64,000 bases of DNA from Nocardioidaceae bacterium. Its GTDB lineage: Bacteria > Actinomycetota > Actinomycetes > Propionibacteriales > Nocardioidaceae. Positions 54,342-59,837 of the stretch are shown piece by piece. Below the pieces are notes generated by a model. It searched no databases and had not been told where the DNA came from. It worked only from the letters and a program-made list of their open reading frames with translations. Each line of letters opens with the position of its first letter. The stretch's first letter is position 1. The position numbers and the translations under genes are program-made. The DNA lies in assembly GCA_029266455.1 (NCBI GenBank), contig JAQSWV010000005.1, forward strand, positions 1 to 64,000, given 5' to 3'.

Positions 54342-56831
54342 TCACCAGCCGGCGCCGAAGCAGATGAGCGGGGCCGGGGCGGATCCTGCGGCCACGGCGC
54401 CCGACGCATCGGCCAGCGCCATCGCCGGCCGGTCGCCCCGAGCCAGCCGCTCGTGATACGCGGTGAACACCTCACAGGCGGTGTCGTCGTTGACCCGCAC
54501 GGAGGACGCCACCACGGTGCGCGCGCCGGCGTGCTGCCAGGCAGCGGTCATGCCCAGGGTCTCCTCGCCGGAGCGGACGCTCGACCGGCCGAGCTCGCAC
54601 GCCGAGAGCACCACGTGGGCCGGCACCGGGTCGACGGTGGCGATGTCGTAGCCGAACCACGGCCCGTCGGTCAGCTCCAGTCCGGAGAACAGGGGGTTGT
54701 CGGCACTGTGCGTCCCGTGGGCCGCCACGTGCAGCAGGTCGACCCGCGAGGCCAGTGCCGTGACCGTGGACGCGTCGGCGGCTCCGGCTCGCAGCATCTC
54801 GGCCGAGGGCCAGACCGCGGCGGCGGAGCGCACCTCCTCGTCGGCGCGCGGCACGGCCGGCCCGGCGACCAGGCCGATCCGGTGCGGGACGTCACCGCGG
54901 GTCCGGGTCAGCGCCCACGACGTCGCCGTCCGCGCGAGTGCCATCGGTCGGCCGGCAAGCGTGGGTAGCAGCGTCCATGGGATGGCCGACAGTGTCGCCG
55001 ACGGGACCAGCAGCACCGGTCCATCCGTACGTCGGACCGGACCCAGCAGGATCTGGTCGAGGGCTGTGCAACCGTCGCGCAGGGAGCCGGCCACCGCAGC
55101 GCGCAGGGGCGGTGGCAACCGGGTGGCCGCCACCTCGAGGTCGGCGACCACGCGGGACATCAGGTCCCTCACCGGCGCGAAGGCACCGAGCCGGTGCACC
55201 TCGGCGGTCGACGGAGTCGCCACCACGGCGTGCACGGCGCCGTCCACGACCAGATGGCTCACCAGCGTGCCCGAGTCGGCGGCGAGCCGGGCCTGGAGGT
55301 CGCCGAGCACCAACGGCTCGTTGACGATGCCGGGGCCGGCCGGGTAGAGCGCTCGCTCGCGCACCTGCTGCTCCAAGTGGCGCATCCGGTGCCGTCCGGC
55401 GGCGGCGCTGCCGTCCGCGGCGCCTTCCGCGGCGCCTGCCTGGGCCCGGAGAGCCCGCAGTGCCTCGAGGGCGGCCGCTGCCCGCTCGTCGGCGGGTGGT
55501 CGTACTGGGGGAAGCCGCGAGGCGAAGGCCCGGGCGCGCTCGCTCCAGTCGAACACCACCGTGGGCCGGCCGTCGGCGACGGCGGCCTGCAGACCGCGGA
55601 TCGCGAGCGCGCGCCCGTGAGCCGCCACGCCGGTCTGCAGGTCGAGGCTGCCGAACGACGACTGCCAGCTGAACAGCTCGGCGAGCCCGCGGCGAAGGTG
55701 CTCGGCGGCGTCCGACCGCCGTCCGCGCGCGGCGGCCAGATCGGCGCGCACGGACCGGTCGAGCAGCCGGGTCGTGATCGGCGCCGTCGACGGTGTCCGG
55801 ACCGTGCCCGCCAACCGCCTGGCGTCGGCCTCCCGCCCCGTACGCAGCATCGCCCTGCTCAGGTGCAGCCGCACCACGCGTGCTTCGTCGGACAAGCGCT
55901 CGGCCCGCAGGGTCGCCGCCAGCTCCGGGCCGGTACGCAGCACTGTCGGCGTCTCGCAACCCCCCTCGACCCGCGCCGCCAGCACCGTCGCATCGGCCAG
56001 CAGGGCCCACGACCTGCTTCCCCGGCGGCGGAACCGGGTCGCTGCCCGACGGGCCACCGTGCGGGCTGCGGCGTGGTCGCGCACCGACAGGTGCAACCGC
56101 GCCAGAGCGAGCTCGGTCTCGGCCTGCCCCTGTCGCAGTCCCAGCCGGCCGAAGGTCTGCGCCACCCGGGCGAGCGTGGTCTCCGCCTCGCTGGTCAGCC
56201 CGGCGGCCAGCAGGACCTGACCCCGGTCGCCGTCGAGAGCGGCCAGGTCGACGGCGCTGTCGGCCAGTGCCGGTCGCGCGTCGTCCATGGCACGCAACGC
56301 CTCCGGGAGTCGACCGGCCAGTAGCTCGACGTACCCGAGGTTCTGCGTGGCCAGGCCGAGCATCCGCACCATGCCCCCGCGCGATGCGGCTTCGGCGCAG
56401 GACTCGAAGTCCGATCGGGCCCGGCCCAGGTCACGGTGCTGCAGGTGGACGTTGCCGCGGTTGAGCAGCGCCCGTGCCCGGACGACCGGATCACCGTCGA
56501 TGAGCGGCATCGCGTGGTCGTAGGCGCGCAGCGCGGCTCGGCCGTCACCGCAGCGCGTGAGAAGCAGTGCGCGCTGGCTCCAGACCAGACCGCGCACCGA
56601 CGGGCACGGTCGCCACGCCAGCGCCTCGTCCAGCAGAGCCAGGCCGTCGTCGAGACAGCCCCGCTCGGCCTCGCGGTAGGCGAGGGTGATCAGGATGCGG
56701 GCGCGCAGGTCGGCATCGGAGTCGCCACAGCGTCCGAGCGCCCGCTGCAGCAGCCGGGCGCCCTCCGTGTGCCGTCCGTGGACGACGACGGCGCCGTGGC
56801 CGCGCTCGTAGAGTGCCTGCGCTGACAGCAC
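54342..56831 (-). CDS. TPR-CHAT protease (caspase/separase-like)
   Basis: 829 residues from GTG 56831. The first 450 or so are TPR-like helical repeats (ARALLNRGNVHLQHRDLGRARSDFESCAEAA and others). The C-terminal CHAT domain (about 545-829) has LLHVAAHGTHS with the catalytic His near 705 and VVLSACELGRSS with the catalytic Cys near 745, then GMTAAWQHAGARTVVAS. CHAT proteases are clan-CD cysteine peptidases used in immunity (for example Csx29) and cell death. No signal peptide, so cytosolic. It is the last gene of the sigma / 155-residue protein / subtilase / CHAT operon, 43 bp after the subtilase stop. Confidence 0.88.
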   Translation of the reverse strand: MLSAQALYERGHGAVVVHGRHTEGARLLQRALGRCGDSDADLRARILITLAYREAERGCLDDGLALLDEALAWRPCPSVRGLVWSQRALLLTRCGDGRAALRAYDHAMPLIDGDPVVRARALLNRGNVHLQHRDLGRARSDFESCAEAASRGGMVRMLGLATQNLGYVELLAGRLPEALRAMDDARPALADSAVDLAALDGDRGQVLLAAGLTSEAETTLARVAQTFGRLGLRQGQAETELALARLHLSVRDHAAARTVARRAATRFRRRGSRSWALLADATVLAARVEGGCETPTVLRTGPELAATLRAERLSDEARVVRLHLSRAMLRTGREADARRLAGTVRTPSTAPITTRLLDRSVRADLAAARGRRSDAAEHLRRGLAELFSWQSSFGSLDLQTGVAAHGRALAIRGLQAAVADGRPTVVFDWSERARAFASRLPPVRPPADERAAAALEALRALRAQAGAAEGAADGSAAAGRHRMRHLEQQVRERALYPAGPGIVNEPLVLGDLQARLAADSGTLVSHLVVDGAVHAVVATPSTAEVHRLGAFAPVRDLMSRVVADLEVAATRLPPPLRAAVAGSLRDGCTALDQILLGPVRRTDGPVLLVPSATLSAIPWTLLPTLAGRPMALARTATSWALTRTRGDVPHRIGLVAGPAVPRADEEVRSAAAVWPSAEMLRAGAADASTVTALASRVDLLHVAAHGTHSADNPLFSGLELTDGPWFGYDIATVDPVPAHVVLSACELGRSSVRSGEETLGMTAAWQHAGARTVVASSVRVNDDTACEVFTAYHERLARGDRPAMALADASGAVAAGSAPAPLICFGAGW

Positions 56832-56874
56832 GACTCATGATGGCGCGTCAGCCGCCGCCTTCTCCACCGTCTGC

Positions 56875-58668: not shown

Positions 58669-59136
58669 TCAGATCTCCACGGTGGGTGTGCGGAACGGGG
58701 TGGGGGTGCCGTCGGCGTCCGGTAGCGGGTAGAAGGCCAGACTCAGCATTCCGCCCGGCACGTCCTGGAGGACGAAGCGGCCGTTGGCGTCGGCGTCGGT
58801 CTCGTACCCGCCGTCGGTGGTGTGGACGTGCACGCGGCTCCGGGTTGCCGGCGCGATCCAGCCGTCGACACGACGCCGGTCGCCGGTCACGCTGACGGTG
58901 AGCATCACCGTCAGCGTCGGGCCGGAGAACGTGACGGAGGTGGCGTCCGATGACGGCCCTCGCGCCCCGGCGAGGGCATCACCTCGCTCGGTGAGGCGGA
59001 GCAGCTCGAACTCGGTGTCGAGATCCTCGAGCTCGAGTGCGAACAGCACGCGGTCGGCCAGGTGCTCGGGCGGCGGGTCGGCCCGCTCCCACAGGCGCCG
59101 CAGACGCGACATCATCGCTGCGTCATCGTGGGTCAT
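58669..59136 (-). CDS. 155-residue companion protein of the sigma/subtilase/CHAT operon
   Basis: ATG 59136 overlaps the sigma-factor stop (ATGA). The N-terminal 60 residues are helical and acidic (MSRLRRLWERADPPPEHLADRVLFALELEDLDTEFELLRL), with the layout of small sigma-binding domains. The rest is beta-rich and ends in a carboxypeptidase-regulatory-like pattern (VHVHTTDGGYETDADANGRFVLQDVPGG). No membrane helix, so it is not a classical membrane anti-sigma factor. Candidate soluble anti-sigma or substrate; I do not recognise a named family. Confidence 0.7.
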   Translation of the reverse strand: MTHDDAAMMSRLRRLWERADPPPEHLADRVLFALELEDLDTEFELLRLTERGDALAGARGPSSDATSVTFSGPTLTVMLTVSVTGDRRRVDGWIAPATRSRVHVHTTDGGYETDADANGRFVLQDVPGGMLSLAFYPLPDADGTPTPFRTPTVEI

Positions 59137-59837
59137 GAGGTCCCTCCCGCGGGGGTGGACAACAGCGCCCGGAGCTTGTCGAGGCAGCGCGCGCGGGTCG
59201 GGCCGATGCTGCCGACCGGCATGTCCAGGTCGGCGGCCAGCACTGCGTAGTCCGGGCGGTCCGAGAACGCGATGACGCGCAGCAGCCGCTGGCAGCGCTC
59301 CGAGAGCCGGGCGACCTGGCCCCAGAGCAGCCGTTGCTCGTCGTCGAGCAGCGCCGTCGTCTCCGCGCTCGCCTGCGCCGGGAGCGCGGCCTCCAGCGCG
59401 TCGTCGTCGGAGGCGGCCGTACGGCGGGAGCGCTGCGACACCCGCCAGGCCTCGCGACGGGCCGTGGTGGTGAGCCAGCGCAGCACCGCCCGCTCGTCGC
59501 GGATCGACCCGGACCGGCGGACGAGCGTGAGCCAGGTCGTCTGGACCACGTCGTCGCTCGCGTCCCGGTCGAGTCCGTAGGCGCGCACGATGTGCCACAG
59601 CACCGGGCTGAGGATCCGGACCAGGGCGTTGAGTGCGTCCGCGTCTCCCTGGCGCCAGGCGGCGAACAACCGCTCCGATCGTTGCCACAGCGGATCGGCC
59701 GGGCTGTGACCGTCGACGTCGGCGATGCTCGTCGACCGGCCTGCCCGCGGTGATGTCTCCAAGGCCCCTCCCTCGGATGCGGCGCTCGCCTCGCCAGCGG
59801 GAAGAGGCTGGCGGACAGGGACACCGTAGTGCCGCAT
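59133..59837 (-). CDS. ECF-type RNA polymerase sigma factor
   Basis: 234 residues if it starts at ATG 59837; the first 60 are low-complexity, so a later start is possible. Region 2 is clear: [52 protein letters not shown]. Region 4 follows: [63 protein letters not shown]. It presumably directs transcription of its own operon. No obvious ECF promoter could be assigned. It shares the strand with the Lrp gene upstream (gap about 40 bp). Confidence 0.88.

Follow-up and report, generated by a model that had tools for sequence, protein, structure and literature searches.

Why should an extracytoplasmic function (ECF) sigma factor share an operon with two proteases and a small protein that has no Pfam family match? 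The question is raised by four minus-strand genes in the window analysed here (the whole stretch of 64,000 nucleotides (nt) from a Nocardioidaceae bacterium, contig JAQSWV010000005.1), which encode the sigma factor, a 155-residue partner called here PART, an S8 subtilase, and a cysteine protease joining tetratricopeptide repeats to a CHAT domain (TPR-CHAT). The answer we propose is a protease-gated sigma switch, in which CHAT, possibly together with S8, would cut PART and so free an autoregulated sigma factor; we consider this proposal evenly balanced between right and wrong. The initial annotation of this DNA knew of no described system with such a layout, but conserved carboxypeptidase, subtilase, and CHAT neighbours are on record for the ECF54 group, for which proteolytic regulation without an anti-sigma factor has been suggested (2022 review PMC8999054, section 3.3, citing Huang 2015 and Casas-Pastor 2021). 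The layout was already known, and it is the likely cut site, the module's own promoter with its target genes, and a peptide repeat within S8 that appear to be new; the repeat, the promoter, and the invariant arginine of the likely cut site had been missed in the initial annotation. The features concerned are as follows.

59881..59907, minus strand: predicted cognate ECF promoter, GTATCA-N16-CTCCT, overlapping the stop codon of an upstream AsnC gene (from dyad conservation and enrichment in module-bearing genomes)
59133..59873, minus strand: ECF sigma factor, 246 amino acids (aa), in-frame GTG start 7 nt past the promoter, probably leaderless (Sigma70_r2, sigma70-ECF, start geometry)
58669..59136, minus strand: PART, 155 aa, two domains, candidate soluble anti-sigma factor and protease substrate (sigma adjacency 160/160; AlphaFold model; CarboxypepD_reg matches in 8/16 members)
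58960..58962, minus strand: codon of PART Arg59, candidate cleavage site in a flexible linker (GAR↓G here; consensus [AG]VR↓[GS]; from invariance and low model confidence of the linker)
56875..58665, minus strand: S8 subtilase, 596 aa, intact triad, N-terminal domain of ~180 aa without a family (Pfam, triad alignment)
58045..58122, minus strand: tandem array within S8, NPAHQS x4 plus NP, residues 182-207 (repeat finding)
57058..57942, minus strand: S8 catalytic domain with Asp251, His317, and Ser522 (Pfam, alignment)
54342..56831, minus strand: TPR-CHAT cysteine protease, 829 aa, TPR superhelix ~1-420 and CHAT domain 588-817 with His705 and Cys745 (Pfam, AlphaFold, Foldseek)

All four genes were confirmed where they had been annotated, and the spacing given for them proved exact: PART and sigma overlap by 4 nt, with gaps of 3 nt between PART and S8 and 43 nt between S8 and TPR-CHAT. 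Pfam recognized Sigma70_r2 (1.7e-7), Peptidase_S8 (3.1e-21), and CHAT (1.8e-27) plus TPR matches. The catalytic residues named in the initial annotation (the S8 triad and the CHAT His/Cys dyad) are intact, and its statement that neither protease carries a secretion signal agrees with a crude Kyte-Doolittle scan, which found no hydrophobic stretch suggesting a signal peptide or membrane helix in any of the four proteins. Its start for sigma, 59837, is probably internal; the true start is probably the GTG at 59873, just downstream of the conserved promoter. TPR-CHAT is the sole CHAT gene detected in the window's genome.

The grouping is not a product of chance, as the four families lie side by side in 137 of the 161 loci examined around PART or sigma, a sample skewed toward Microbacterium owing to the named-genome scan (which also covered Nocardioides, Micromonospora, Phytohabitans, Segeticoccus, Leekyejoonella, and Protaetiibacter). 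The contig scan was run with the sigma alignment, the PART and CHAT alignments being too diverse for a pattern search. The order SIG-PART-S8-CHAT was seen 102 times, S8-SIG-PART-CHAT 24 times, and CHAT divergent from S8-SIG-PART 8 times, alongside two rarer orders, while sigma and PART were adjacent on the same strand in 160/160 loci. Conservation of gene order and of the 155-residue family, which the initial annotation had put forward as a check, is thereby borne out. PART was detected in 44/149 relatives, 105/395 genomes of the class, 29/297 genomes of the phylum, and 26/101 genomes of one large-genome genus. Among the 395 genomes, TPR-CHAT accompanied PART in 104 of the 105 PART-positive cases, CHAT alone occurred in 29, and neither in 261 (Fisher p ~4e-67, uncorrected for relatedness); where SIG-PART pairs stood alone, a CHAT gene was found elsewhere in the genome in 15/15 cases checked, most matching the TPR-CHAT family over most of its length. 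Loss of active residues in homologues, which the same annotation had named as a result that would count against it, was not seen: wherever the column was present, the S8 triad (67/67), the CHAT His (58/58), and the CHAT Cys (57/57) were invariant.

Some loci depart from this pattern in small ways. At L082 (7572-8807, minus strand), one of the 160 loci with adjacent sigma and PART, the sigma gene is apparently frameshifted while PART, S8, and CHAT are intact. Natural SIG-PART fusions had been considered as support for binding, but the candidates were this frameshifted sigma and, at L090, a PART-S8 reading frame, and neither was counted. Additional PART-like genes lie beside the module in one genus (L094, 8594-9049 and 10243-10590; L095, 9084-9461), the shorter ones apparently incomplete. 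A HopA1-family gene lies upstream of some S8-first modules (L074, L080, L064, L087, and L101), and in genomes G045 and G018 (L339 and L341) a HopA1-type gene has a promoter copy to itself and is read in the divergent direction. Its presence in just 4/24 loci of one gene order and one further locus ruled it out as a regular fifth member of the module.

What, then, does PART do? Its AlphaFold model (80 aligned sequences; mean predicted local distance difference test (pLDDT) score 86) comprises a two-helix hairpin (residues 3-54), a poorly ordered linker (~41-65, pLDDT ~50), and a seven-strand sandwich (66-137). The linker is variable and gap-rich around Arg59, whereas Arg59 itself is invariant in 80/80 aligned sequences, in 177/177 of a larger set, and in 25/25 clusters below 40% identity. 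The preceding residue is mostly Val and the following one is Gly, Ser, Ala, or Thr in 175/177. This is what might be expected where a clan CD protease directed at arginine cuts, and from sequence Arg59 is the likely candidate. The C-terminal sandwich is covered by weak CarboxypepD_reg matches in 8/16 PART members (best E 1.8e-4). CarboxypepD_reg is a regulatory, non-catalytic sandwich. Since it is this non-enzymatic domain that the sandwich matches, the 'carboxypeptidase' neighbour of the literature is probably PART. This bears on the published view of ECF54, that there is no anti-sigma factor and that proteases hold the system off by degrading sigma itself. That account counts a 'carboxypeptidase', whereas the gene fitting the label here resembles a non-catalytic fold and is the one most tightly tied to sigma; although stated for ECF54 in print (PMC8999054), degradation of sigma therefore seems to us improbable for this module.

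If PART is the substrate, which protease cuts it? The AlphaFold model of TPR-CHAT (pLDDT 92) shows an extended TPR superhelix leading into the CHAT domain. Its best Foldseek match in the Protein Data Bank (PDB) is Csx29 in the Cas7-11/Csx29/Csx30 complex (8EEY, E 8.6e-14), and the further top matches include human separase and the transmembrane anti-sigma factor DdvA, itself a TPR-CHAT protein. A sequence search with the CHAT domain gave DdvA chain 8ROT (5e-11), Craspase TPR-CHAT (~5e-9), and separase (~0.01). In type III-E CRISPR systems, the TPR-CHAT protease Csx29 cuts Csx30, which inhibits an ECF-like sigma factor (PMC10028731). CHAT is favoured as the cutter because its closest fold is Csx29 bound to Csx30, and because of the match to separase. 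Alternatively, S8 rather than CHAT could cut PART at Arg59 in a kexin-like manner, with CHAT acting on S8 or sensing a signal and activating it. S8 is as conserved within the module as CHAT, its triad is invariant, and it directly adjoins PART in the main gene order. Some subtilases do cleave after arginine. On the other side stand the structural precedent, which points to the CHAT protein, and the near-constant co-occurrence of CHAT with PART, whereas several SIG-PART loci have no S8 of the module's family within 8 kb (the rest of those genomes was not searched for S8). Cutting by S8 is in our estimation unlikely, if the strongest of the alternatives.

Several observations weigh against the proposed switch and are best considered together. 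PART has no anti-sigma or zf-HC2 Pfam domain, and a Foldseek search with its model returned no anti-sigma structure, only fn3/Ig-like sandwiches with none below 1e-3. A two-helix hairpin with no recognized domain or fold is what PART presents in place of a Class I anti-sigma domain (ASDI). As no anti-sigma fold was matched, the anti-sigma role of PART rests on gene coupling and precedent. Covariation between sigma and PART (effective number of sequences 118) was dominated by invariant columns, and Arg59 could be a contact residue instead of a cut site. The known cut in Csx30 falls after residue 428 and need not use a PART-type motif. S8 could be the cutter, and the published view of ECF54 dispenses with an inhibitor altogether.

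How would the sigma factor act once free? Whichever main order the genes take, the first of them is preceded by a dyad, GTATCA-N15-17-CTCCT. Of 97 non-redundant loci, 45 have its exact core, while shuffling gave 12 at most, and a weight matrix locates it at almost all loci. The site was present in 99/102 main-order loci, with an in-frame start codon 7-8 nt downstream in 88, a spacing that probably reflects leaderless transcripts. Genome-wide, 90 sites were counted in 22 module-bearing genomes (reversed pattern 21) and 9 in 22 relatives lacking the module (reversed pattern 9), with most of the enrichment coming from 13 genomes of the family and order to which the window belongs (68 sites, 7 reversed). 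With the strict pattern, genome-wide enrichment was absent from a Micromonospora-like group and from a single genome of the large-genome genus; there a variant, GTATC[AT]..GCTCTG, precedes many SIG-PART pairs, and the short stretches examined around unlinked CHAT genes contained no promoter site.

Five sites and no reversed ones occur in the window's genome, preceding the operon itself, an M43 metalloprotease (L316), a vanadium-haloperoxidase-like protein (L318), and an RTX-repeat protein (L319), the fifth being probably false (L317). In other genomes, the genes following a site encode proteases (M4, M6 immune-inhibitor-A, met-zincin, and a trypsin-like protein), oxidative enzymes (haem peroxidase, DyP peroxidase, tyrosinase, and FAD oxidoreductase), and a PLP decarboxylase, an endonuclease/phosphatase-fold protein, an L,D-transpeptidase, DUF6345, and a LuxR regulator. 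Taken together, the predicted set is rich in hydrolytic and oxidative enzymes; single targets are predictions and some sites will be chance. In three genomes (L327, L337, and L375), a short leaderless-type reading frame of ~47-105 codons, beginning MTPHP[LM]AT or MTSPHPFA, lies just after the site and is possibly a conserved small protein. The DUF6345 protein at L374 (2915-3619, minus strand) has a His...Cys pattern (SSHG, THAC) resembling caspase-like proteases. A further M43 metalloprotease gene lies in the window itself (51766-52803, plus strand), ~1.5 kb away from where the CHAT gene ends, the M43 gene behind a predicted promoter being elsewhere in the genome.

These targets also bear on whether the module is an anti-phage or abortive-infection system, in which infection would activate the proteases and bring on a lethal response. 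TPR-CHAT proteins do function in type III-E CRISPR, nuclease-fold, metalloprotease, and peroxidase families figure among the predicted targets, and presence within the large-genome genus is patchy. The targets also include secreted proteins and metabolic enzymes, however, and PADLOC matched only generic subtilase and IetS models to S8 and none to the neighbours. Clustering in defence islands, another check put forward earlier, was not found: the genes around the window module encode NlpC/P60, malic enzyme, AlgH, an M43 protease, MFS, AsnC, an M1 peptidase, and FAA hydrolase, and none is a defence gene. Of the initial annotation's functional proposals, a sigma-driven intracellular protease system thus stands, the 155-residue protein is plausible as both soluble anti-sigma factor and substrate, and phage defence found no positive evidence; we regard a defence role as quite improbable, the least favoured of the accounts weighed here.

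Returning to the proposed switch, its steps may be set out as follows. At rest, PART, translationally coupled to sigma, would keep it inactive in the cytosol. On a trigger that the TPR superhelix may sense, CHAT would cut the PART linker after Arg59; the hairpin and the sandwich would come apart, and sigma would be set free. Free sigma would read GTATCA-N16-CTCCT promoters, activating its own operon in positive feedback through mostly leaderless transcripts and, beyond it, a few to ten other genes, many of which encode hydrolytic or oxidative enzymes such as metalloproteases and peroxidases. S8 may take part in this relay as well, acting upstream of CHAT or completing the removal of PART, and its species-specific array may serve in recognition, as a ligand, a docking site, or a substrate. 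What the sequences establish is the genes and how well they are conserved, the residues that never vary, the array with the selection acting on it, and the promoter with its tie to the module. That PART inhibits sigma, that Arg59 is cut and by which protease, that this sigma reads the promoter, what the trigger is, and what S8 and its array contribute are inferences; the least secure of them are the inhibition, the choice of cutter, and the part played by S8 with its array.

The array raises a question of its own. Between the N-terminal and catalytic domains, most of the S8 subtilases carry 2-12 tandem copies of a 5-8-residue peptide that is identical within a protein and differs between species: NPAHQS x4 in the window, PFTRGA x8, PVTSGH x11, NPFTRT, PYTDPH, NPFKA (period 5), PYGGKTN (7), and many more, with a grammar of roughly [NH]-P-[FY]-x-x-[TGS]. 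The period itself varies (5, 6, 7, 8, and 11), even between related species. Arrays were found in 101/102 modules of the main order, 16/24 of the second, and 0/8 of the divergent one, the bearers comprising the window, L064, L077, L080, L091, and ~113 other loci; at two loci the units are separated by spacers (PYWKVP, TPYTIPH). Across 117 distinct arrays, codon differences between neighbouring copies number 925 synonymous and 19 nonsynonymous, whereas only ~25% of chance changes would be synonymous; the ratio is somewhat flattered by a finder that maximizes protein identity while allowing imperfect copies. Thus, selection keeps the copies identical as protein while their DNA drifts. A unit in common is found mostly between modules whose CHAT proteins are more than 80% identical, and almost never between those below 60%.

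The unit is absent elsewhere in the window's genome, and the search for units outside their arrays, in genome or locus, gave a single match at about chance level (L272). Covariation of the units with CHAT, S8, PART, and sigma columns brought out no partner. A fixed solenoid is less likely, given that the period changes between species and many arrays hold only about three copies. The array might instead be a multi-copy, species-specific peptide message, in which S8 or CHAT would free 5-8-residue peptides, the TPR superhelix would read them, and CHAT would then free sigma, an idea that we put forward as a long shot. If true, this would amount to a peptide-gated, caspase-like sigma switch with protease and signal precursor in one protein. 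RRNPP signalling employs TPR receptors with peptides of 5-8 residues, a likeness to the TPR protein that here stands beside a species-specific peptide source. Unlike that signalling, S8 has no secretion signal, and peptide release or TPR binding is hypothetical. We know of no protease with such an intraprotein peptide array, and a literature search for one found nothing.

Among known systems, the closest in gene content is ECF54, likewise an actinobacterial ECF sigma factor beside a subtilase, CHAT, and a protein annotated as carboxypeptidase; both the ECF sigma domains (Sigma70_r2, sigma70-ECF) and this neighbourhood (the 137 loci) were found here, the assignment being made from gene context alone. 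The present account departs from it in rereading the 'carboxypeptidase' as a candidate inhibitor of two domains whose linker arginine never varies, and in adding the promoter, the candidate targets, and the S8 array. Type III-E CASP (Csx29/Csx30/CASP-sigma) similarly combines a TPR-CHAT protease, with a CHAT fold matching that here and the intact His/Cys dyad that the window's protein also has, with an ECF-like sigma factor and a partner that is both the likely substrate and the likely inhibitor. It differs in that PART, which has no NCBIfam match but may be analogous to Csx30 in function, is 155 aa against the 565 aa of Csx30, S8 is extra here, and the module is wide in Actinobacteria; a scan of the genes around the operon, though not of the genome beyond them, turned up no Cas7-11 gene. 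DdvA (PDB 8ROT, 8RW5) is also a CHAT protein tied to a sigma factor and matches in sequence and fold, but it is described as a transmembrane anti-sigma factor, whereas the CHAT protein here is soluble and keeps its dyad, and the candidate anti-sigma is a small protein encoded apart from it. Separase shares the CHAT-domain fold and is an arginine-directed endopeptidase cutting a flexible site. It is, however, a eukaryotic cohesin protease and involves no sigma factor.

Control of ECF sigma factors by TPR-CHAT proteases is known experimentally in type III-E CRISPR (PMC10028731). If the model is true, the module described here would be a CRISPR-free counterpart of that relay, spread through Actinobacteria. 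The S8 array is a separate puzzle, its copies held identical by selection while sequence and even period shift between species. For the long-noted ECF54 group, a named candidate cut site (PART Arg59), a reporter promoter, and a short target list make its regulation directly testable.

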